Origin: Chromera velia
Taxonomy: Eukaryota; Sar; Chromeraceae
Direction: 5' to 3'
Length of the DNA: 24,885 bases
Assembly: GCA_018398765.1 (NCBI GenBank)
Contig: JAHBMJ010005393.1
Coordinates: forward strand, 45,945-70,829
How positions within the stretch are numbered: position 1 is the stretch's first letter; each line of letters opens with the position of its first letter. The position numbers and the translations under genes are program-made. The notes beneath the pieces are model-generated. The model was not told the DNA's origin. It ran no database searches and saw only the letters and a program-made list of their open reading frames with translations. This document shows, in pieces, positions 3,463 through 24,885 of the stretch.

Positions 3463-3526
<64 letters not shown>

Positions 3527-4675: not shown

Positions 4676-6646
4676 TCAACTTGCCTTATCAACAGAATGG
4701 ACCTTCTTGAGACAGTTGGCTATAGCTTTGGAACCGCTTCTAGGCAGAATTATGCACAACAGCAACACCATATCCTTCATTTTTTTCTCATTATCAGAAG
4801 TGCCCCTCCCGGTTGCACCTGCAACACGTTGTGTGATCTGTATTCTTATGTCAATGGGTGCTTTCTGCTTCACAATTTCGTACAGTTCTTTCAGCCTGTT
4901 CCGTTCCCTTTCTGTGTCCTTACATTCCGTCAGAACATGAATCTCATCTTTGATCACACGCGAGGGGGACAAACATTTATTGCACAGCCGTTCCGGTTGG
5001 GTTCTATCTATATCCCCCCCTGTAAGAGCCCTGAAAAGCGTACGGAAGCCTGCGGAGGACTGCAACAGACCCTTTGGCAGAGGTTCAACACTGCACTCTA
5101 TCATTTCACTTCTCGGACGCCATTTCCTTTCACTCAGAAGGTGCATGGCCAAACGCTGTCTGGACGGATTCTCTAATTGGAAAGGGGAGAGATTCGTAAA
5201 GTGAGGAAAAATTCCGTCTCTGTCTCTAACGTTTCTAGTTTCTTCTTTCAACCAGTCGGACAGCCAGGCACCCTCTACAATCTTTTTTGCCGCCCTTTTC
5301 CTTCTGCCCTTACCCTTCCCTTTAAACTTGTCCCCCACCGTGCTTAGCAATGGAGGCCACAAAAGGGAGCAATCTAATGGAACGGCCAGCCATTTTACTG
5401 TCTTAATGAAGGGTTCACATGAGCCAGCCAAGCACTCATTCCACACTGCCCGGGGTAGAGCACGGTCGATCGATTTGATGCATTGGATGAAGCCCCCACT
5501 TAACTTACCAAGTAGAGAACTGAATAGCTCGAGAGAGAGAGAGAGAAGGGAAGGCGAAACAAAGGAGTGATGGGAGAGACCAAAACAATATCGAATAAAA
5601 CGTAACTGTAATCCATCGAGGCAGACAACATCTGTCTTTCTCAGCGGGATCGTTTCCAGTCCATACAGCACGACTGGCAGCCAAAGAGCCTTGAATAAAG
5701 TAATTTTAGAAAAGGGAGAAACAAAGCCCAGAGAAGAGAGAATACCAAACACCGCCCCCAAAGCCTTCTCTGCCGCCTCAATGCGGGCTTCGACTGTCTT
5801 GCTAAGGTCCCCGCCCTCAAAAACCCAGTTGCCCAAATACTTATATTTACTCACCGCTTTCACTGGTCTGCCTTCATAAAGAAAAGGGGTCCGGGGCACT
5901 AGGTCGGGGTAGGGGGAGGAGAGACGCATAACTTTTGTCTTCTTTAAATTCACCTTCAGGCCGTGCTCTTTACAATAGTCCTCGAGGCGAGACAGGCATT
6001 TCTGTAAGTCAGAAGCACTGTGAGCAAACAGAACAAGGTCGTCAGCGTATCCGATGCTTTCGATTAAAACATCAGACAGTCTGACAGGAGTCTCTCTATC
6101 AGTACCCCCAGCCAAGCTTTGATTCCTGTTTTTATTATCGGAGCTGACAGACTTATGCAGATTGTTGATGAAAAGAAGAAAGAGGAGAAGAGAGAGAGGA
6201 TCGCCTTGTTTTACTCCTCCGCCTTCTGGAAAGCATTCTGTTGCCCCATCCACCCGAGCCTTCACCTGACTATACATCAAATGAATCATCCAAACATTGG
6301 CTCGGCTTACTCCTTCCTCCCTGAGCTTCTCTAACATTTTGACCCAAAGAACTGTATCAAACGCCTTGCTAAAATCAACAAACGCGGCAATCAGAGGGCT
6401 CTTCTTCTTTTTGAAGCTAAGAATTAACGAAGACAGAGCAGCGAAGGCCTCCCTTATCCCTACCCCCTGTCTGAAACCGAGCTGCCTTTCATCAATTTTC
6501 ACCTCTTTCTTGATCTTTGAGTCCATCAATAAAGCAAAAATCTTACCCAGAAGCCCCACAATGTGGATCGGGCGCCATTCGTTACAGTCGAGACTCGGCA
6601 GGCTTTTGGGGACGGGAGCAATGCGCAATACATTCCAGCGTTCAGG
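4676..6646 (-). pseudogene. Reverse transcriptase and C-terminal zinc-knuckle part of the retroelement
   Basis: About 656 codons are open from just after the TAG at 6647-6649 to the TGA at 4676-4678. Ordered RT motifs are visible: PVPKS and WRPIHIV; motif A VDFSKAFD; motif B GGVKQGDPLS; the catalytic box YADD (6038-6049); motif D LKVNLKKTKVM; and motif E YKYLGNWV. Downstream, at about 4930-4992, Cys-x2-Cys and His-x4-Cys form a knuckle typical of the C-terminus of many non-LTR polyproteins. No RNase H domain is seen. All catalytic residues are present and this part is uninterrupted, so the copy is fairly young, or the upstream breaks are partly sequence errors. The enzyme would make cDNA from element RNA at a nicked target. 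Confidence 0.85.
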
Positions 6647-7050: not shown

Positions 7051-7811
7051 CTTCTCAGTTTGACACATTCTTTTCGCAGAGGGTGAGAAGGGTTCGGAAC
7101 ATGTCTTGCCTTTTCCTCTGCCTCCTTCACCTTCAAATGAATCAGGCGGCATTGAGGGTCCCACCAAGCCTGACGGGTGTTCTGCTTTCTCCCAGACTGT
7201 CTTCTCTTCGTGGATGCCTTTCCTTCATCTACCACTGCACCCACTTTACTGTCTGCCAGCCTTTCTTCCCAGAAAAGACCCAACTGTTCCAATTGGTCAA
7301 GATAAGAAGCCTTGCTGAGAGAGTTGGGGGGGGGAGCATTCTGAGGGGGAGGTGGTTGTGGAGGAAGGGGTGGTAGGTCAGGGGGGGGTGGGATAAGGAG
7401 AACAACTTGACCTCTTTTACGCAGTTCGTTTACCCTTCTGTCGAACAGGCCGGGAAAAACCGTCTCAAAAAACGGTAGGACCGCTCTGGCGAGAGGAATC
7501 ATTTCATTATCAGTCACCGGGGAAGTTCTATTAACAGTGAGGAGAGGGGGGAGAAAAGAGAAATTCTTTTCGCCCGTGGGGGCATGCGGAGGATTAGAAG
7601 ACATAGGGGGAGGAGATGAATCAAGAAAAAAAGAAAGAGAAAGAACAACATATTGAGGGGCAAAGTCAGCTTCCAGGTTTGAAGTGGCAGAAGACCAGGC
7701 TGTCAAAAGAAAAGGATCTACAAAAAAGTGATCAATCGCTGTTGTTTCTTCTCCTGCTTTAAAAAAAGGTGCACGGGCCCGGAAAGGAGATATCAACACC
7801 CAGCCTCTCAC
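6996..7811 (-). pseudogene. End of the endonuclease domain plus linker of the retroelement
   Basis: This frame overlaps the endonuclease frame at 7759-7811 and continues it through KAGEETTAIDHFFVD, the ID-x-hydrophobic motif near the end of APE endonucleases. The switch falls at seven A (7761-7767), an obvious one-base slippage site. The expected terminal SDH triad is not visible: the aligned region reads APQYVV, so the catalytic His is apparently lost. After it comes a Pro-rich linker and a basic helix rich in Arg and Glu, then a stop near 6996. Confidence 0.7.
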
Positions 7812-8577
7812 ATTTCAAGGACAGGCTTTGGAGAGGAATTAAGTTAGAGCGTTCACAAAGACGGATCAGCCAATTCCCTTGCTCGTCAGGTTGACTGCCA
7901 TGGCTGCAGGCTGACAATCGAGAGGGCTTGCAAGCATTAACTTGGTTCTCTTCTCTGCTTTCATCAGTGGGACATAGCATTCTTTCCCAAGTTAGCCCTT
8001 CCGGCACCCGATTTCCCAGCTTGCCGTTCATGTCCCCAACCAGGATATGCAAATCCTCGAGAGGTACCTGATACAGTGCATCGATCACACCCTCTCTCTC
8101 TCTGTCTCTTTGCTCCCTGTCTCTCTGTCTCAGGTCAGACCCTCTAGGTAGAAAGTACACACCGAAGACATGGAAGACTCTCGTGGCTGACTCCCCCCCT
8201 TCTGAGGGAGAAGGCACATTCACTGACAGACGGACCAGATTTTGACCTACCAGCTCCCACCTTGGCTGCAGTTCATGAACTAAAGAATTCTTGACTAGGA
8301 TGCATACACCCTCTGTCTTTGCTTCCCCGATGGTTGCGGCTTTCCTTCTCGACCCTTCCACTTTGATTTTCCTTCTCAACCACTCAAAGTGATCGAAATT
8401 ATACCCTGTGTGAGTGGATGTTCTTACGGGCATGGAGGGGCACTTCGTTTCCGTCAACACCACAATGTCTGCCTGGCAAGCGGCCAGCCACCGCTTGAGA
8501 GCCTTGCTTCATATGCGTGACCCCAGCTCCCCCACATTTACCGTTTTTATTGTGAGTTTCCTTCTTCCTGAAGCCAT
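7759..8577 (-). pseudogene. APE-type endonuclease domain of the retroelement
   Basis: The domain would nick target DNA to prime reverse transcription. Visible motifs are TVNVG with the N-terminal metal-binding Asn, VVLTETK with the catalytic Glu (about 8450-8470), and GDMNGKLG with the Asp/Asn pair (about 8010-8030). It may start at the ATG at 8577 (MASGRRKL) or continue from the Ser-rich region, which is in the same frame. A TGA at 8509-8511 interrupts the domain between the Asn and Glu motifs. The codon context is compatible with CGA to TGA decay. The frame is lost again at the A7 run, 7761-7767. Confidence 0.75.
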
Positions 8578-13394: not shown

Positions 13395-16300
13395 GTCAGT
13401 CAGTCAGCAGAGGAAAGGAAAGGAGGGGCGGGCACGTGGTTACTTAGTGTTGAGCTGATATCCTTCCTTTGCTTTCTGTGCAAAGGGGGAAGAAGTGGGT
13501 TTCCCTCCGAAACGTGTGCATGTTTTTAGGTGGACGTCTTTCTTGATTTCCTCCGTGTTCCTTTCTTCAGATGTGAAAGGACCGCGTCCCCGGCATTTTC
13601 TTCGGCTTTCCGTCTGAAAAAAGTATCTTTTTCATTTCACAATGTATGCACTATGCGTACCGCCTTTGCCGGATCTGCGAATGTTGTACTCTATTTCACC
13701 ACCTCTCTCTCTGTCTGCAGCAAGGAGGCGTGACCCCCTCCTTCCTCCCAACTCTGTACCCCCACCAGCTGGGTGCCCTCCGTTTTATGCTGCACCGCGA
13801 GGGCCTCTCTCTCCCCTCTTCTTCCCCGTCCGTCTCCGAGTCTGTCCCTGTGCCTGTCCCAGAGATCAGGAGAGACAGAGACGGAGAGGGAGACACAGAG
13901 AATCTCGTTTCGATGAGGGGACCCACAGAGACAGAGAGTAAGAGAAACCACCTGTTTCCCTTTACGGAAGACCAGACGGTGGAGAGAAGAGTGTGCCCTA
14001 GATTTCGAACAGAGGAAGAGGGAAAAGGCTCCCATGCAAAGAAGGGAAAGAGGAAAGGGGAAGAAAAAGGACGGTCCCAAAAGGCAAATGTAGCCACTCG
14101 TTTGAGTCCCTCTCTTGTCCATGTGGACAGAGTGACGGGCCTCCCTGTCGCAGTGTCTAAAAACGCTTTCCGAAGAAGAGTGAGAGAAGTGAGTCGTCGA
14201 GAAGGGGACAGGGGGGACAGGGCGGACATTCGTAGGGTTCGTGACTTCAGAGGGGGGATGTTGTGCGACGAGCCGGGACTTGGCAAGACGGTCACTGTGC
14301 TTGCTCTGTTGATGAAAACCCGGGGGATGCTACCTTTTGTCGGCTGTGACTCTTCTTGTGTTGGTATGTCGAATAGCGAAGCTGTCGATAAAGGGTACCT
14401 GTCGCGTTGTGCTCTGTCTGTGGGGGGGGAGGAGACGGTTGTGTGGGAGTGGCGGCAGGATCAGGAACACGAAATCGGCAGAACATCCCTAGATCGTTCT
14501 TGTAAGCGTGTAGAGAGAGAGGGGGAGACACAGTGTGGAGACAATGATGATGAAGAGGAGGAGAGCTCTTCCTTGTCAGTCGGGGAAGACGAATCGGATT
14601 TTGAGGTTGCCAGAGAAGGAGAGAGACAGGGAGGGGGATCTCTCTGTGTAGAGGAGACGGAGGAAGAAAAAGAAAAGAGAACAATCGAAGAGAGCAGAGA
14701 AGCAGGCACCATCCACGAGATGAAAGAAGGCCAAAAAGCGGGAAAAGAAGAAGAAGAAGAAGGTGGTTGCTCTGGAGCTTCATCCAGTCTCTCCCTTTCT
14801 GCCCCTCCTTCCTTTTTCCCCCCCAAACCAGAAATTCCTGAATGTTCGAGCCCCAGTCCAAAGCGCCGAAAAACACAAACCGAAGACAAACAATCGGCTT
14901 CCAACCACCCCTTCGCGACTCCCCAAACCAACAGAGGAACAGACAAGTCTGCCCCGTCTCCGTTTTCACCTCCGAGTAAATCCTCTGCCTCTGTCAAAAA
15001 AGGCAAAGAGAGGAGGGCAAACAGGGAGATCGACTGGCTAGATCCCGAAAAAAGTCGACCGCGTTTTTCCAAACGACAAGTCATCATACCTAAACGGTCG
15101 GTCAGTTTGGCGAGTCGCAGTTACAATGCAATGAACCCTTCGCTTCGTACAGTGCGACCGAAGGCCGAGAGAAGGAAAGATATTGCCTCTAGTCTCTCTC
15201 CTTCACTGTCCGTCCCAGATGTCTGGGCTCTGTTTGTTTGCGCGCTTCCTCTTTGGTCCGACATCTTCGCTTCTCTGTCTCTATCAGTCTCCTTCCTTTC
15301 TCGCCTGTGATCGAAGTGAGGATTAAGGAGCGTAGACAGGCATTGCGTTTCGTTCTAGTCAAACAGAAGGAAAAGGAAAGACAAGAGACTCAGTAGAAGA
15401 GAAATTGCAAATTCCTTTCCTCGTCCTTCTGTTCGTTCAGATGAAAAATTATCATCAAATAGAAAAGGCTGTTGATTTATAAATCTCTTCTTCTCACCTT
15501 GGTTGCGTGTGTTTGCTCAGATTGAATTTGATCACTGCTGACGATCCTGCTTTCTTTGAGGGTCTAGGTGACAGAGAGAAGAGAATGTACAGGGCACAGG
15601 GCATTCTCTCCCTGGGCAGCTTCGGGTTCGCACCCAAACACAGACAGATGGAGTTGGCGGCTGTCAGAAAGGGGGGGGCTCCGATGCCTCCTTCTCCTGT
15701 CGGGATGAGACGCAGAACGGGGCCGAGTGAGACTTGGAGTCGGTTTCTGACCCTCACCGCTGCTTCTCTGGTAGTGGTGCCTGATGAGTTGGTTGCCCAC
15801 TGGATAACCCAAGTGGGAAGGCACGTTGTGGCGGGGGGATTAAGGTTGATAGTAGAAGGGTCTAGAGGCCAGAGACAAGTGGCGGTGGTGGGAACTGAGG
15901 AGATGAGTTTCTCTCAACCTGCTGCTTCTGCAGCCTCTGGACAGAGGAGACGAAGTGGGAGGAATAACAGTGTGGTCGAGGAGATGGGTGAAACCCCGGC
16001 AGAGAGGGAGATGCGGAGGGTGGTTGCGTTTGTGAAGACAGACGTTGTGGTGACCACATTCTCGAGACTCCAGATAGAGATGGAGGGAGTCATGGGAGGG
16101 ACCTCTGCTTTCCTGAAGGTCCGTGTCTGGCAGATGGAATGAAGAATCTTTTCCAATCTTTCGTTTCCTGAATCGGTTTCAAGGCATCAATATCTGAGAT
16201 GGAGCGCCAGGCAGCCGGCAGGCAGGCAGTGGGGGGGTGATAAGGAGATGAAGAGAATCAACAGATCAGTCTTCTTGGTGTCTTTTTTTGGGCAGGTCTG

Positions 16301-16464: not shown

Positions 16465-19400
16465 GCTGCAGGTCCATTGGAAACGTCTGGTGATCGATGA
16501 GGGCCACAAGATGGGTGCAACTCTGGTAGAAACCAACACAAAAAAGGTCAGGCGGGCAGAGAGCAGAAAGAACATCTACCTGCCAGTCGTTGGGCGGAAA
16601 CAATTTTGTTTTGTTTTGTGACTTGGTACCCACATGTGCTCTTCTGCATGGACGCGCTCCTCTCTCCTTTATTCCTTCTATTCTTTCTCTCTCAAAATAC
16701 CTTCCCGCACTGTCTTTGTGGTTGAAGCACGGCTCAACGCCTATTCTGGCAAGCCTCCCCTCATCCTTTTTTCATTCTCTCTCTCCATCTGCTTGACACA
16801 ACTTTACGTGATCTGCTGCCCTGATTGTTTGACAGGCCTAGACGCCCTTCATTATCGATACCTCAGACGTCCGTCTGCTTGAAGAATGGGTGTGCATGCC
16901 TCTGGTCTTTATTTTCCATATCTGTTTCACAATATCGATATAGCCCCATGCGCATGATTGATTCTTGACGTGCAGGTCCTGAACGCCCTGAGTGCGGAGT
17001 CTCGGTGGGTCCTCACAGGAACCCCCACAAGAGGGGAGGCTGTGGAGAAACTCTGGCCGCTCCTCGAATTCCTCAGAGATCCCTCAAGACTCCAGGGACA
17101 CAGGTGGGTTTGGGTGGGTTTGGCTGGCGGGCTTGGAAAGTTGGTCGGCTGCGGCTGCGCTTTCTTTCAATACTCATACAGAGCAGGGCGGGTACGCTTG
17201 AGGAAAACTCGATGACGTGCGGACGTTATGCTGCAGCGTTGAAGGGAAATGAAAGTCCGGATCTCTCTACGTTCTTGCTGTGACTTTCGTGAATAATTTG
17301 ATGCAGATCTATGAAAAGTGATCCCCGCATTTAAATTTGTATTAGCTTTCTCGGACTGAAGTTCCCTAGTGATGGCTTCCGATTTCTGCACCCCCTCCCC
17401 TTCTCGCAGGTTTTCGAAGGCCGTGACGAGACGGCTGACCTCCAAGGGGACTCTAGCGCTCCGTCGGTATTCGTGTAGCGGTGAGGGGGGGACAGGGGAA
17501 GAGGGGGAGTGGAGCGTTTGCAAAGTGGTGTCGATGAGGGAGAGAGAGCAGGCGTGGGAGGCCCTCAGATCTATTTTGGAGAGAATCTGTGTGAGGACCC
17601 GGAAGGCAGATTGTGACGCTTTTCTGCCTCCCCTCCGGTATCTGCGTGTGCCGTTGAATTTCTCAAAAATGGGCGTGAAGGGATACAATACTCTGTGTGA
17701 GATCGTCCAGAGGAATCTTCTGTTGGCCGACTGGTCAGAATCAGGTTTTTTCTCACACAAATCTTCTTGAATGTTTGGTGTGAGTTTGATTCGATTTGAG
17801 AAGCCAATAGTGTGGGATCGCGGAGTCCAAATCCTTCGATCATGTGCGCCTGTTACTGTTAAGGAAGAGACACAGAGGGTCGAGGGATTGCTGCTGTAGG
17901 AGGAGTGGGCGGATGAAGAGCCGAGAAAGAGATATCTAGTTAAAGAGCGAGGCGGAGAGGGAATAAAGGAGGATCGCATGCCAGTCCTGGATCTCTTCAG
18001 CCTCTTTTGCTCCTCTTTCTTGCGTTGCATCTGCTGTGACTGTATCTTCCATTTGCTTTCTTTAATGTTTTTTGAATGAATGTTGAAAGTCATCTACTGT
18101 GGAATAAAAAGGACATTCAGCCGAGCAAGTAGATGACGAACGGCGTTCCCCCCCCCCTCGTTATCTCTGTTGGAACTTGCACCTGCAGGTTCGACCCCAC
18201 ACACAGCGAGAGTTTGCTGTACCGAGAAAACAGACAATTCAGAGAGATAGCCATGTCGAACCTCGTCAAGGCCTGCAGTGTGACGGCAGAAGTGGAGGTT
18301 TATCAGGAGGCGTGGCAGGTTCCCGAGATTATCGACTGGCTCAGAAAGCATATGCCTGCAAGACGGGCACTGGCCCCTGACAGCCATGCTCTTCCCCTCG
18401 CGTCCCTCTCCTTTTCCTCTTCCGTTCCAGCTGTGGACACGGAGAAGACAGGGGTATCCGGAGACACCGAAGAGGAATCTCTCGCAAAACGCCTACGAAG
18501 AGAGGGAACGATAGAGACAGACACCACAATGGAGAGCCAACAACCCTCTGTTTCCTCTAGTAGCCGTATTCCCTCCGCTGTCTGCATCCTTTCTGATGAG
18601 AGACTCCTTCGCATAGATTCCTCTTCCTCTTCCGTCTCCATCCCTTCAGAGGTCACCCCTGCTGTCCCATCCCTTCCGATCTCATCTGTGTCTCAGTCGC
18701 ACTCCCTCTCAGCAGACTCACCTCTGACCGCGTCACCCCTGACAGACGTAGCAGCCCCTGTCGTCCCAACATCCGTCCATCCCGAACCAAACGGGACCCT
18801 TCCGGCACTTGACGACGCCCCCATGCGCCCATCTGAGGTGGAACAAGAAGACACCACAAGCGTGACACACCTCGATTCTGCACTGCCCTCTGAGGCACAC
18901 ACAAAAAGGCCCCGATCCCCCTCTCCCACAGCATCCGAGCGTTTCCGATCGGAGCTCGAAGTCTTTCTTGACACACTGAGACCCAGGATATCCAGCAGCA
19001 CCCCGTGTGACGTCTGCAGTCTGATGGTCGAGATGCCCCTCGTGACACCCTGTGGGCACTTGTCGTGTTGCGAATGCATCGCCAGTTGCCCTCGCCATTG
19101 TCCCCTCCCTTCCTGCCAGGCGCCCTATCTGTTCGACAGACAGGGGGACCCGAAGGAACTGATCGAGCTGCAGCCTGCGTGGCTCAATCCGACGCCCTAT
19201 TGGAAGGCCAACTGGTGGCAGGTCTCTTCCACGAAGCTGGAATGGCTGCTGCCTCATGTCAAGAGAAGGCTGGTGGCTGACAGAGGGGAACGAGGGGGGA
19301 GCAGAGGAGACGGCTTTGCTATGGCTGGAAAAGGCCGGGTTGTGCCGAAGGTGAGTGCCTTGACAACGCAGGGAAGCGTAAGGCAGTGTCGGTTGAAAGA

Positions 19401-21127
19401 AGAGCACTTTTTTCCTGTTTGAGGAATCTGAAGGTCCCAGAGATGTCTTGACGATCGGTCAAAGTTGTCTGCTCATTTTTATACGTCCGTCGCATCCACG
19501 CAAGTCACGTCAAGGCTTGAATGGCCTCGATGATCAGAGAAAGAGGAAGCGTATGGATGTCATGGTCTGGGTGTGTCTGTCTTTTTCCTTCAAAATGGAT
19601 ACGTTCTTCCGGCTTTTCTCTGTGTGTTTGCTTCCCTCCATTTCTCTATTCGTTCATCGCAGGGCCCTCTGCCGAAGATTTTGATCTTTTCGCGTTTCAT
19701 CGAGACGTTGGAGGTCGTCAAGCAGAACCTGATTGTGGCGGCGGGGTTCCGCTACTTTGATGACGACCACGCACTGAAGGGGAAAAGCGTGAGGGAGGCG
19801 GCCAAAGAAGATGAAAAGCTAAGGGCAGATGCGGCAGCGTTGGGTGAACACAACCCGGCGACAGATGGTGCAGGGGTGGCGGTGGGGGCGGTTCAATTAG
19901 AGGAGGGGCAGGATAGGTTGCCTTTTTGGTCTTCTGCTCTTCCCTCTCCTTCGTTTGGAGGAAACGAAAGAGGGGGGGATCCTGGAACTTCTGCTAAAAG
20001 AGTGAGCCCAGCGGGGGGGATTCAGGAGACCGGAAGTGGAGGGGTGGACAACGGGGGTGTTCTGACTTCCTCTTTGTCATCTTCCTCCTCCTCCTCCTCT
20101 GCTGCTGCTGCTTTGCCTTCCGCACCGGAGCATCAACAGAGAGGTGGTGGGGAGGAGAGTGGAGTTGGGAGGCGACTGTCTAGCAGCAGTGGCAGTGGCA
20201 GCAGTCCTCCTAGGCCGGCATGGCCTGTTGCTGCTGCAGGGAGAGGAATGGGAGGAGATGGGGTGCTTCAACGTTCTATGTCTGCTGCCGCATCCTCTCC
20301 TGTGTATGTGGGGCACTCAGAGGACCCAGACGACTGGGTGTTCGTCACTGAATTTTATTCTCCTATGCCGGTGCGTCCACATGCTTTGTTGGAAGGAGCT
20401 CTGTGTCTGTTTTTTGTTTTATCGCCCTTCTTCGTTTTATTTGAGGCTTTGCAAGGACCTGCTGCGTCCATCTGTTCCTCCCTCTCTCCTTATTTTTTGG
20501 TTGGGGACAGGAGGGCCGGATGTCCTATCCCTTTGCTCTCTTTCTCTGATGCTTCCCCTTCCTCTCTTCTTTTTCTCATCGAATGTCAGAACTTCAGCCA
20601 GACCAGGGAAATGAAACTGTATCGGCCAGCTGAGGTTCACATGACTTCGCAAAGTGGATAGACGGACGAAAAATCTGGTAATGTTTTGCAGGGAAACATC
20701 AAACTTTTCCATCTGAATCAATTCGTCAACAACCCGCGAGCTGCCGTTCTCCTCTGTGACAAGACTGCAGCACTCGGTCGGTCGGTCTATCGGTCGGGTC
20801 CTTTCCACGCCTGCTTCCTTCCTTCCTTTCTTTTCACCACTTGTGAGTGAGTCTGATGGATAGACCCCTTCGTAGCGCACGCGCTTATGTGCTCTGCTCG
20901 GTGAATGGACTGACTCTGCTTTAACGTTGTTTTGAGGAGTTTCGTGCGTAGCAAATACTGTTTCCTTTTTGTTTTTGCCGTCTTTCGGAAAATTGGTGTG
21001 CTGGACGTCGTAAGAACCTGGCGAGTGGCTCATTTCCTTTTTTTGTCGGTCTCATTATTAATATATCCCCATTTGCCTCTTCATCTGTCTCTCCCTCTCC
21101 CTCTCCCTCTCTCCCTCTCTCTCTCTC

Positions 21128-21160
<33 letters not shown>

Positions 21161-23571
21161 TCTCTCTGTGTGTGTGTGTGTGTGTGGCAGGTCTGGATCT
21201 CTCCATGGTGACTGACGTGATTTTGATGGACCCTGTATGCGACCCTCTTTTTTTCCATCAACTTGTTTCGAGAGCACACAGGTCGGGGAAGGGAAGGCAA
21301 GGGAAGGGACATTTGATTGAGTCCCTTGTTTTGCTCAGCTTTCCTCCCTGTCCATTCCAGATCAAAATCTTCACTGCATGCAGTGAGAGAGAAAGGAGAC
21401 ACCAGGGTCCCCTGTCCATTTCCATAAGGCAGGCAGGCGCCACTCTTGCTTTGCGCAAAGACGAACCCACCCGAGTCAAATCATACCGTTCGGACAAATC
21501 ATCTGCTGGAGACAGTCCCTGTGGTCTTATGGATAGGGGAAAGCAGGCGTCCGTCCATTCGGTCTGCCTGCTCTGTATGCATGTGCATGTGGCGTGAATA
21601 CATGTGGAATACTTTCTTACTTTCTTACAGAAGCATACACGTTCGCTATGCCACATGTGCATGAGCACTCCTCAGTCCTTCTCTGTGTCTGTTCTTGAAC
21701 ATTGCTGCCTTCGTCTTTCCCTCCTCCCCTCTTCTTCTTTCTTTCTGCAGACTGGGCGCCCGAGAGCCCGTGACGGTGTACCAACTGTACATGAGGCAAA
21801 GCATCGAAGAAATTGAAATCGAAGTCAGTCAGTCAGTCAGTCAGTCGGTCGGTCAGTCAGTCGGTCGGTCAGTCGGTCAGTCAGTCAGTCGGTCGGTCGG
21901 TCGGTCAGTCAGTCAGTCAGTCAGTCAGTCAGTCGGTCGGTCAGTCAGTCAGTCAGTCAGTCGGTCGGTCGGTCAGTCAGTCAGTCAGTCAGTCGGTCGG
22001 TCGGTCAGTCGGTCGGTCGGTCGGTCAGTCAGTCAGTCAGTCGGTCGGTCGGTCGGTCAGTCAGTCAGTCAGTCAGTCAGTCAGTCAAATCGACATTCAG
22101 AATTTGTGCCTGCCTGTAGACTTCGGTTTCCACTTTGAAGACTGTGAGCTGATGTGTTCTCCCCGCGCGCGGCCCTTTGCGAGTCTTCTCTCTTGTTTCA
22201 TTGCGTAAGTGTCTCGTCTTTTTATCTGCCTGCTTATATGAAGGTGCTCTTGGCGATCTTTTTTACATGACTCCTCTTCATTGCGTTCAGGAGACGGACA
22301 AAAGCAAGCGCGTCTCCTCTGGAAAGACGGGAAACTCAGACGCCGATGGGAAAGAGCAAGAAAGCCGAAAAGGCGGTTATGGAGGAAAGCAAAATGGAAG
22401 AGAGGATTTCCCCCGCTCCATCTCCGAACAGACTACCAAGACCGAGAACACTGCACTAAACAAGGAAGAGGAAAGATTGTTTGACTTTGCGTTGCAAAAA
22501 GAGAAAAAGAAAGAGACTCAGGGCATCGCAAGAGTCCCTTCGGACAGCCTGAACATCGCTGACATTCCCTGCGTCCGTAGCAAGGGAAGGGGAGGGATCT
22601 CGGGGGGTCCGGCTCACGCATCCGCAGGGCCAACCGGTGGGGGGCCCTCTTCTGCTTCCAGAAGGGGGTCTGCCGGGGCCCGTGTTTCAGGTAGGGGGTC
22701 TGCCGGGGCCCCTCGTTCATCGAGGCCCAACAGGGGTCGTGGGGGCACTGCGGCTGTGAGGGGAAGAGGGCAGAGTGATGGGCTGAGTAACCCTGTTCCT
22801 TCCCTCGGCTCTGGTCTGTCTGAAGCCCCAGCTCCAGATACTGTTCCTTCTGCTTCCTCTTCTGTATTCCCGCCGCCCTCCTCAGGAGAGAACGGTCAAG
22901 CAATGCCAAGAGAGCATGAAGGAGAAGAAGCGGGGGACACTCTAAGCAGAGAGTCAGGAGAGAAAGGGGGGCAGGCAGCAGAGGAGAGTCGAAATTCTTC
23001 AGAAATACTGCAAATTGCAGAATCAAGTTCCAGCCCCCCTGCAGCAGATCCCCCCTCCACCCGCTCCCGTTTGTCCTGTCGTGATTCCCTTGGGGGAGGT
23101 CGACGGCGAGCCCCCCCTCCTCGTCACGGGGAGCTGCCCCCATACCACCTGAGAGACATACAGAAAAGTAGAGAGACGGCAGAGGTTGCAGACGTGCAGA
23201 GAGGCACCAGAAAGCGAGGACCCCCACCTGCTCAGCGTCAGTCTCTATCTTTGCCGATTGGAGAAGCAGAGCAGGGCGGGGCAGAAGACAGAGAAGGTGA
23301 TAAGTCAGCAGAGGCTGGAGAGCCGCCTCAGTCTGCGAAAACATCCAAGAACAGTGGGCAGAAACGAAAAAGAGAGAAGGAGAATCCAACCTCACCTGGA
23401 GAGGAGAAGGAGGCCGAGAGTGAGAGAGCTCAGCGGGAGCTTGAAGAGTATGAAAATAAACGCACGGCAGAAAGAGAGAAGGAAAAAGAGAAGCAGAAAG
23501 AGGATCGCGAGCTTGAGACAGTCAGACACATTCTCTTCAGAGTCCGACCCCTCAGACAAATTGTATCATAG
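11907..23571 (+). CDS. F-box / SNF2 ATPase / RING helicase (Rad5/16-related, plant At3g54460-like)
   Basis: Twelve exons: 11907-13394, 13721-15096 (or 15207), 15521-16118, 16472-16546, 16976-17103, 17410-17733, 18189-19350, 19663-20370, 20692-20776, 21191-21281, 21751-21823 and 22291-23571. All junctions keep phase, giving about 2462 aa. Order: F-box-like segment (464-496); Q-motif PHQLGALRFML (508-523); Walker A DEPGLGKT (679-686); motif Ia LVVVP (about 1038); DEGH (1163-1166); motif III LTGTP (1192-1196); RING finger (1603-1639); lobe 2 from KILIFSRF (about 1718); motif V LGLDLS (about 1981-1986); motif VI QLVSRAHR (2005-2012). SNF2 proteins of this group are nuclear ATP-driven DNA translocases. 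A RING between the lobes is the Rad5/HLTF/SHPRH layout and suggests E3 ubiquitin ligase activity. The F-box could dock SKP1/cullin. Similarity to the plant family is from memory, including ADW-x-DPTHSESLL and ELQP segments. The CW zinc finger I recall in the plant proteins is not seen. Confidence 0.9.
13721..15096 (+). CDS. Helicase exon 2: Q-motif, Walker A and a large acidic insertion
   Basis: It begins after CTGTCTGCAG with the Q-motif region LYPHQLGALRFMLHRE. Walker A DEPGLGKT lies at 14267-14290. About 270 residues of Glu/Ser/Lys-rich sequence follow, with a likely nuclear localisation signal PKRRKTQ. The phase needed by exon 3 (two leftover bases) is met by donors at 15097 (GTCGGT, preceded by G), 15208 (GTCCGT) and weaker later sites. 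I prefer 15097 because its context matches the other donors. Choosing 15208 adds 37 residues. Confidence 0.75.
15521..16118 (+). CDS. Helicase exon 3: motifs Ia and TTF
   Basis: The acceptor is TTTGCTCAG at 15512-15520. It carries ASLVVVPDELVAHW (motif Ia region) and DVVVTTFSRL, the D-x-V-x-TT segment before motif II in Rad5/16-type ATPases. A 25-residue Gln/Ser/Arg-rich insert lies between. The exon ends FLK with donor GTCCGT (16119), phase 0. Confidence 0.85.
16431..16460. repeat. (TC)15 tract before the exon 4 acceptor
   Basis: Fifteen TC dinucleotides lie directly before TTTTGCTGCAG. They serve as the polypyrimidine tract of this 3' splice site. Confidence 0.95.
16472..16546 (+). CDS. 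Helicase exon 4: DEGH (motif II), 75 nt
   Basis: Twenty-five codons starting VHWKRLVIDEGHKMG. DEGH at 16496-16507 is the Walker B box of this SNF2 subgroup. The acceptor follows a (TC)15 tract and TTTTGCTGCAG. The donor is GTCAGG (16547). The spacing from DEGH to the next exon's RWVLTGTP matches what I recall of plant homologues, including the aligned TN pair, which supports this donor over GTAGAA at 16527. Confidence 0.9.
16976..17103 (+). CDS. Helicase exon 5: motif III
   Basis: It begins VLNALSAESRWVLTGTPTRG, with motif III LTGTP, then a helix EKLWPLLEFLRD. The exon ends in phase 2 at AG, with donor GTGGGT (17104). The donor is the first base of two tandem GTGGGTTTGG units. Confidence 0.9.
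17410..17733 (+). CDS. Helicase exon 6: end of ATPase lobe 1
   Basis: The first G completes an Arg codon. The exon encodes the segment joining the lobes (LRSILERICVRTRKADCD, LNFSKMGVKGYN, RNLLLADW). It ends inside the Trp codon: TG before donor GTCAGA (17734), completed by G at 18189. The result, ADWFDPTHSESLL, is close to the plant family at the same point and fixes this unusual donor. Confidence 0.85.
18189..19350 (+). CDS. Helicase exon 7: Ser-rich insert and RING finger
   Basis: After FDPTHSESLL there are about 200 Ser/Thr/Pro/Glu-rich residues. Then comes a C3HC4 RING at 19006-19116 with spacing C-x2-C-x11-C-x-H-x2-C-x2-C-x7-C-x4-C; all eight zinc ligands are present. A conserved tail follows (DPKELIELQPAW, STKLEWLLPHVKRRL). 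The donor is GTGAGT (19351), phase 0. RING fingers of this type recruit E2 enzymes. Confidence 0.9.
19663..20370 (+). CDS. Helicase exon 8: start of lobe 2 and a low-complexity insert
   Basis: It opens GPLPKILIFSRFIETLEVV, the first strand and helix of the helicase C-terminal lobe. About 180 residues of Ala/Gly/Ser-rich insert follow, including Ser and Ala runs from TCC and GCT repeats. It ends VTEFYSPMP at donor GTGCGT (20371), phase 0. YSPM resumes the conserved lobe, so the insert sits in a surface loop. Confidence 0.85.
20692..20776 (+). CDS. Helicase exon 9
   Basis: Twenty-eight codons plus one base (FHLNQFVNNPRAAVLLCDKT). This is the lobe 2 segment just before motif V. The donor GTCGGT at 20777 starts a short GTCGGTCGGTC repeat. 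The leftover G joins GT of exon 10 to make Gly of LGLDLS. Confidence 0.85.
21085..21190. repeat. CT tract, 30 C, CT and TG repeats at a 3' splice site
   Basis: CTCTCC repeats run into 30 consecutive C (21129-21158), then TCTCTCTC, then about ten TG/GT units, then GGCAG at 21186-21190. The whole forms an extreme polypyrimidine plus TG acceptor region for exon 10. Its length is prone to slippage. Confidence 0.95.
21191..21281 (+). CDS. Helicase exon 10: motifs V and VI
   Basis: It encodes LDLSMVTDVILMDPV and QLVSRAH; the arginine finger motif is completed across the next junction. The acceptor GGCAG is preceded by CT repeats, 30 C, and a TG repeat. The donor is GTCGGG (21282), with two leftover bases. 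Confidence 0.9.
21751..21823 (+). CDS. Helicase exon 11: end of motif VI
   Basis: It completes SRAHRLGAREPVTVYQLYM, then QSIEEIEIE, the usual T/S-IEE helix closing SNF2 lobe 2. The exon ends at GAA, and the donor is the first GTCAGT of a 66-unit tetramer array. Phase 0. Confidence 0.9.
21824..22087. repeat. 66-unit GTCA/GTCG tetranucleotide array starting at a 5' splice site
   Basis: 264 nt consist only of GTCA or GTCG, with no other substitution or indel. The first base is the first base of intron 11. GTCA and GTCG units occur in runs of one to seven. No stop codon occurs in any forward frame, which produces spurious Ser/Val/Gln/Arg/Gly frames. Confidence 0.97.
22291..23571 (+). CDS. Helicase exon 12: charged C-terminal tail
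   Basis: It begins ETDKSKRVSSG after CGTTCAG and runs 426 codons to TAG at 23569-23571. The tail is disordered in type: Lys/Glu-rich, an Arg/Gly-rich part with a 10-residue repeat (GRGSAGA), Ser/Pro-rich, then a charged coiled-coil-like end (EREKEKEKQKEDRELE). Another frame stays open to 23707 and looks protein-like at its end, so an unseen small intron changing the C-terminus is possible. Confidence 0.75.
   Translation, partial: ETDKSKRVSSGKTGNSDADGKEQESRKGGYGGKQNGREDFPRSISEQTTKTENTALNKEEERLFDFALQKEKKKETQGIARVPSDSLNIADIPCVRSKGRGGISGGPAHASAGPTGGGPSSASRRGSAGARVSGRGSAGAPRSSRPNRGRGGTAAVRGRGQSDGLSNPVPSLGSGLSEAPAPDTVPSASSSVFPPPSSGENGQAMPREHEGEEAGDTLSRESGEKGGQAAEESRNSSEILQIAESSSSPPAADPPSTRSRLSCRDSLGGGRRRAPPPRHGELPPYHLRDIQKSRETAEVADVQRGTRKRGPPPAQRQSLSLPIGEAEQGGAEDREGDKSAEAGEPPQSAKTSKNSGQKRKREKENPTSPGEEKEAESERAQRELEEYENKRTAEREKEKEKQKEDRELETVRHILFRVRPLRQIVS
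22663..22711 (+). repeat. 30-bp tandem duplication encoding GRGSAGA-type repeats
   Basis: Nineteen identical bases (AGGGGGTCTGCCGGGGCCC) start at 22663 and 22693. The offset is 30 bp, so the helicase tail gains a 10-residue repeat in frame. Confidence 0.85.
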
Positions 23572-24562: not shown

Positions 24563-24634
<72 letters not shown>

Positions 24635-24694
24635 ACACACACACACCCTAGACTGTAGGCTAGACACACACATACACACACACGCATACACGCG

Positions 24695-24733
<39 letters not shown>

Positions 24734-24793
24734 ACACACACACACCCTAGACTGTAGGCTAGACACACACATACACACACACGCATACACGCG

Positions 24794-24836
<43 letters not shown>

Positions 24837-24885
24837 ACACACACACACCCTAGACTGTAGGCTAGACACACACATACACACACAC
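24528..24885. repeat. CA microsatellite with a ~100-bp minisatellite at the window edge
   Basis: A CA/CATA tract is followed by three copies of a unit carrying CCCTAGACTGTAGGCTAGAC, starting at 24646, 24745 and 24848 (spacing 99 and 103 bp). Each copy then has ACACACACATACAC, a CACGCATACACGCGCATAC block and a CA run of variable length. The array continues past the window edge. Confidence 0.95.

Follow-up and report, generated by a model that had tools for sequence, protein, structure and literature searches.

A GTCR Microsatellite Beginning at a 5' Splice Site of a Chromera velia Helicase Gene, and Its Counterparts at Other Donors of the Genome

The Helicase Gene and Its Array

We studied a stretch of 24,885 nucleotides of Chromera velia DNA (contig JAHBMJ010005393.1, positions 45,945 to 70,829 of the forward strand; the whole stretch is called the window, and positions are counted from its first letter). 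In it, a helicase gene carries a long and perfect array of the tetranucleotide GTCR, which starts on the first base of an intron. Ten resolved exons between 15521 and 23571, separated by nine GT-AG introns, joined into a single open frame 1507 residues long, and pieces of the product matched both SNF2 (1.8e-31) and Helicase_C (6.6e-07) in Pfam. Judged by its predicted product, the host gene is a SNF2/Rad5-like helicase; a RING finger match was weak (E 0.045, 14 bits, under the cut-off of 27). The features of the gene are as follows.

13395-13407, plus strand: start GTCAGTCAGTCAG (3.25 units) of a third intron with a GTCR run, inferred (join 13394/13721 open, phase 0)
15521-16118, 16472-16546, 16976-17103, 17410-17733, 18189-19350, 19663-20370, 20692-20776 and 21191-21281, plus strand: helicase exons (open join, Pfam)
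20777-20787, plus strand: start GTCGGTCGGTC (2.75 units) of the second intron with a GTCR run (gene model)
21751-21823, plus strand: exon before the array, ending in LGAREPVTVYQLYMRQSIEEIEIE, at the end of the Helicase_C region (open join, Pfam)
21824-22087, plus strand: perfect 66-unit GTCR array, starting on the first intron base (pattern match)
21824-22290, plus strand: intron opening with the array, acceptor cattgcgttcag (open join)
22291-23571, plus strand: last exon found, with a 426-residue low-complexity tail (open join)

Positions 21824-22087 fitted the pattern (GTC[AG]){66} exactly, with 41 A units and 25 G units. The upstream exon closes with GAA at 21823 (peptide ...QSIEEIEIE), and the downstream exon begins with GAG at 22291 after ttcag (peptide ETDKSK). 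Both the perfect 66-unit array and its start exactly at a 5' splice site, as claimed in a first-pass annotation of this DNA, were thus confirmed by the pattern match and the spliced gene model. The window contained 66 occurrences of the motif GTCRGTCRGTCR, all but two of which (64) fell inside the array, compared with 0.03 expected from dinucleotide shuffles, so that the array is a microsatellite in the usual sense of head-to-tail units of 1-6 bases repeated beyond chance. In sequence it also has the form of a GYNNGY tandem donor, since two or more GY dinucleotides stand 4 nt apart where the exon meets the intron. The A and G variants were clustered (19 runs vs 32 expected on shuffling; 19 or fewer in 9 of 20,000 shuffles), as expected if units were duplicated locally.

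The nine resolved donors of the gene were gtccgt, gtcagg, gtgggt, gtcaga, gtgagt, gtgcgt, gtcggt, gtcggg and gtcagt. C stood at +3 in six of them, and in four of seven after the two introns with GTCR runs were left out. Three introns of the gene start with such runs (21824, 20777 and 13395), the last of which is predicted from the open in-phase join 13394/13721. The annotation had also said that the array repeats a donor used elsewhere in the gene. This applies to GTCGGT at 20777, which was read from the model, while exact GTCAGT recurs only at the inferred 13395. Its name for the array intron, intron 11, fits if an F-box-like exon before 13395, seen by eye, is exon 1 and one further, unresolved intron lies at about 15100-15521.

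Donor Choice and Reading Frame

The frame would be changed by 44 of the 65 later units if they were taken as donor, in agreement with the earlier arithmetic that two of three slips change it; use of an in-frame later unit would add four residues per three units. In the frames shifted by the first and second units after the initial one, a stop followed after 65 and 58 residues, within the last exon found. Such transcripts would therefore yield a protein that lacks the 426-residue tail, and under the exon-junction-complex type of rule for nonsense-mediated decay they would not be an obvious target. Retention of the intron would add exactly 104 residues and end at 22136-22138, where about 104 and the same stop had been given.

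Pairing with the 5' end of the genome's own U1 small nuclear RNA (snRNA; AAACUUACCUGG, locus L031) was predicted at -2.6 kcal/mol for the first unit and at -2.6 to -5.4 for the other 65. Since the later units pair equally well or better, base pairing by itself gives the first no advantage. The view of the array as a row of near-equivalent donors agrees with this prediction and with the donor-like form of the units, and slippage of the spliceosome along them, as first proposed, is plausible but unproven. Three U1 snRNA matches were found in the genome, one above the family cut-off and two below it, of which one was full-model and one partial (L031, L032 and L033). We also considered a compensating U1 variant and rejected it. 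Both U1 copies with an intact 5' end carry ACTTACCTGG, and the pattern ACTNACCTGGCTGGCGCT matched these two only and revealed no U1 variant suited to GTCAGT.

The weak predicted pairing at array donors, together with the equal or better pairing of later units, is what might be expected if the array were functional, that is, if repeated donors raised U1 avidity or deliberately yielded shifted transcripts, with length tuning output under selection. Recurrence of the arrangement in kinesin, M16-peptidase, prefoldin, HECT and kinase genes (below) points the same way. However, array blocks in our sample ranged from 20 to 513 bases and many were interrupted, as in a drifting repeat, and we consider a selected function unlikely.

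Arrays beside Exons in Other Genes

The surroundings of similar arrays were investigated in 44 distinct arrays with at least 5 perfect units, kept from 90 fetched loci; they were the first in contig order rather than a random draw, and L060 and L061 lie within one array field. By eye, the flanks of the sampled arrays differed outside the repeat. Open frames of 30 codons or more that touched an array were compared with Pfam; the donor side had 78 of them, and the other three sides had 50, 67 and 59. The donor side gave 12 families, which pooled to 8 exons (two kinases, kinesin, M16, MORN, ankyrin, sushi and cNMP) when the ankyrin models were merged into a single exon and the second kinase model was put down to one of the two kinases; matches were assigned to arrays from the translations. 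The other sides gave 1 (C_tripleX, one frame), 1 (two EGF models pooled as one exon) and 0. The donor-side excess had P 0.0004 for equal sides and 0.002 when weighted by frames scanned. Comparison with the PDB added HECT (L092, 9.7e-09, aligned up to the last codon before the array) and prefoldin 3 (L045, 0.00017) on the donor side, both from flanks chosen by eye and hence outside the uniform count of 8. Twelve other flanks gave no credible domain match, and in one set of seven loci flanks, L083 included, there was no Pfam match at 0.05. Codon usage was tried as an exon detector and set aside as too weak at 90 bases.

At five loci (L078, L043, L013, L045 and L092) the first unit follows directly on the last exon base, and the frame is restored by a downstream exon that begins after cag. 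For four of these junctions, Pfam scores could be compared between splicing at the first unit and a product with four extra array residues, the first and second units after it shifting the frame. The first unit scored higher in all four (bits for kinesin 94.4 vs 90.5, M16 73.5 vs 62.3, cNMP 29.6 vs 20.4, prefoldin 34.2 vs 24.0). Thus, from these scores the first unit is probably the productive donor in those four genes. The HECT junction stayed outside the comparison since neither splice gave a Pfam match at 0.01. At the cNMP-binding locus (L013) we also noticed, from about 1761, a near-repeated exon start (GRVKFISKRN, GRVKLISKRN), perhaps a tandem exon duplication.

These junctions bear on intron gain, by which a GTCAG repeat expanding inside exons would create or extend introns, with an introner-like or tandem-duplication origin. 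Such a repeat does hold both a donor (GTCAGT) and an acceptor (CAG), and array starts coincide exactly with exon edges. But in the five resolved junctions a separate cag acceptor lies about 200-800 bases beyond the array end, leaving much non-array intron sequence, and we regard this origin as very unlikely.

The Repeat in the Whole Genome

Over the 177.8 Mb in 4040 contigs of this intron-rich genome, the 28-base (GTCR)7 had 3773 + 3678 matches, overlapping ones counted. Right edges of arrays numbered 1083, 1605 and 630 (six, five and six units; total 3,318) for three of the four end phases, several edges being possible from one array. Left-edge phases were counted too and proved uninformative, because an exon-final A or G resembles array sequence. 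The trinucleotide before (GTCR)3 was MAG 879 times and MAY 279 times, a 6.3-fold excess per base, compared with a background in sampled DNA of 1.07 before any GT and 1.47 before GTCR (Fisher P about 1e-16, clustering ignored). Among the three donor types counted, MAGGTCRGT (10,720) exceeded MAGGTGRGT (8,417) and MAGGTARGT (4,792), with mirror-image controls of 5,736, 7,549 and 12,660 that are too variable to serve as exact backgrounds. By these numbers, donors with C at +3 seem to be common in this genome. The 879 sites with MAG before (GTCR)3 make up 8% of the sites with MAG before GTCRGT. Moreover, MAG stood before (GTGA)3 142 times vs 34 mirror matches, and that GTGA behaves like GTCR speaks for donor seeding as a general process and against an element specific to GTCR. 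The first-pass annotation was right about the array at a 5' splice site, its donor-like units, and the frame and retention sums, and it overlooked this wider recurrence.

Considering that tetranucleotide arrays are abundant in the genome, an ordinary intronic microsatellite might have touched an exon of the helicase gene by chance. The bias of domains to the donor side, the bias of array starts to MAG (with the caveat of its mirror control, below) and the three introns in one gene all disfavour such contact, which we judge highly improbable. It is extremely unlikely that the array is coding, as a V-S-Q-S repeat with the junction misplaced, or a product of assembly. The retained frame is open through the array for its 104 extra residues, yet retention would forfeit the 426-residue open tail, and array-coded residues lowered the domain score in every junction scored elsewhere. 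As for assembly, Velvet with k 71 is given in the available part of the Chromera genome paper (PMC4501334); if the assembly is the same, the array length may be wrong. Arrays as numerous as those counted here, with 3,318 right edges in three phases and 44 distinct arrays from 90 loci, are nevertheless hardly an assembly error.

A Probable Donor-Seeded Microsatellite

To the position and purity of the array, the donor-side association and the first-unit junctions in other genes, we would join the following explanation, which we think has a good chance of being correct: the array is a microsatellite that arose at a functional donor, which also keeps it in place. The donor core GTCRGT is already one and a half GTCR units. 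Replication slippage at such donors could lengthen GTCR downstream into the intron, while upstream growth would be barred by the coding exon, and any change of length would keep a donor at the exon edge; arrays would therefore survive at that position. The first unit would normally be spliced, and the later ones would be potential tandem donors in 4-nt steps, seldom used or tolerated. A stronger version seems to us quite unlikely, namely that several hundred or more genes carry mutable donor arrays whose length sets the frequency of slipped donors, so that the amount of functional protein made would be under an inherited and rapidly changing control.

Several observations weigh against a donor-seeded origin. 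The mirror-image control for the MAG excess also leaned to G (147 vs 91, the latter covering two bases, or 3.2-fold per base), and part of the 6.3-fold may therefore be due to composition. For MAGGTARGT the mirror control exceeded the forward count, such controls being crude, and the GTGA excess was measured against a mirror control only. Around most sampled arrays Pfam recognised no exon at all, whichever side was taken, and a scan of ten donor-side flanks that had seemed coding by eye brought no credible match (a virus coat family at 0.031, below the cut-off, was ignored). Codon usage was weak support, being above zero on the donor side in 19 of 44 arrays vs 14, 14 and 6 on the other sides, and above the 90th null percentile in 5 vs 1, 2 and 1 (90-base flanks). 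Finally, the array at L058 abuts an acceptor on the opposite strand, which a donor seed alone does not explain.

At L058 (1178-1480, minus strand) the array lies directly before the acceptor of an ABCG-like exon supported by homology, as (TGAC)n...TGCAG and then the exon. Within the intron-strand sequence TGACTGAC there is a CTGAC, which resembles a branch-point motif. This single supported case hints that a second splice signal, possibly the branch point, may seed repeats too. Opposite-strand arrays directly upstream of an exon start were also seen by eye at L074 and L083. The homology comparison gave no support to L074 as an EF-hand acceptor case, and L083 had no Pfam match.

Other Features of the Window

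On the minus strand, 4676-6646 and 7759-8508 hold an RVT_1 reverse transcriptase (9e-29) and, preceding it on the same strand, a frame that is endonuclease-like by eye; together they look like a non-LTR (long terminal repeat) retrotransposon. A 99-base tandem repeat of 3.2 copies, AC-rich and with CCCTAGACTGTAGGCTAG, occupies 24565-24885 and adjoins an AT-richer stretch from about 23600. There are also a pure run of 30 C at 21129-21158, within a helicase intron close to its acceptor, and a pure run of 30 G at 3496-3525.

Known Systems and Significance

In the parts of the published sources available, four systems come near to these arrays. GYNNGY tandem 5' splice sites (PMC4267661) likewise have two GY donors 4 nt apart, a spacing that GTCAGT fits and that changes the frame, but in the helicase intron the motif is repeated 66 times over, and arrays, read here in DNA, occur genome-wide. 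Tandem alternative splice sites (TASS; PMC8055015) were catalogued from RNA-seq, whereas ours are long microsatellites read in DNA. The introner elements of Amoebophrya (PMC7789003) also link repetitive DNA to intron boundaries, and in an alveolate. Introners, however, have inverted and direct repeats and a seemingly transposon-like spread, in contrast to a tetranucleotide array at one end of introns that otherwise look unrelated. In intron 5 of dog LHX3 (PMC3223203), the copy number of a short, seven-base repeat is associated with abnormal splicing, but this concerns one gene, and the part available is silent on a donor array at an exon edge. Among the matches listed from the open-licence PMC literature there was no report of microsatellites beginning at 5' splice sites or of Chromera donors, and the main text seen of the Chromera genome paper (PMC4501334) has no word starting with "splice".

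Work on how one 5' splice site is chosen over those next to it mostly uses pairs of sites. The present arrays place as many as dozens of near-identical donors 4 nt apart in conserved genes, each with the frame as a readout, in a genome whose U1 5' end is the usual one even though C at +3 seems common. Donor-anchored arrays are thus a natural test of choice among identical splice sites. They also suggest that splice signals are possible birthplaces of microsatellites, and that the repeats a species accumulates may depend on its donor consensus.

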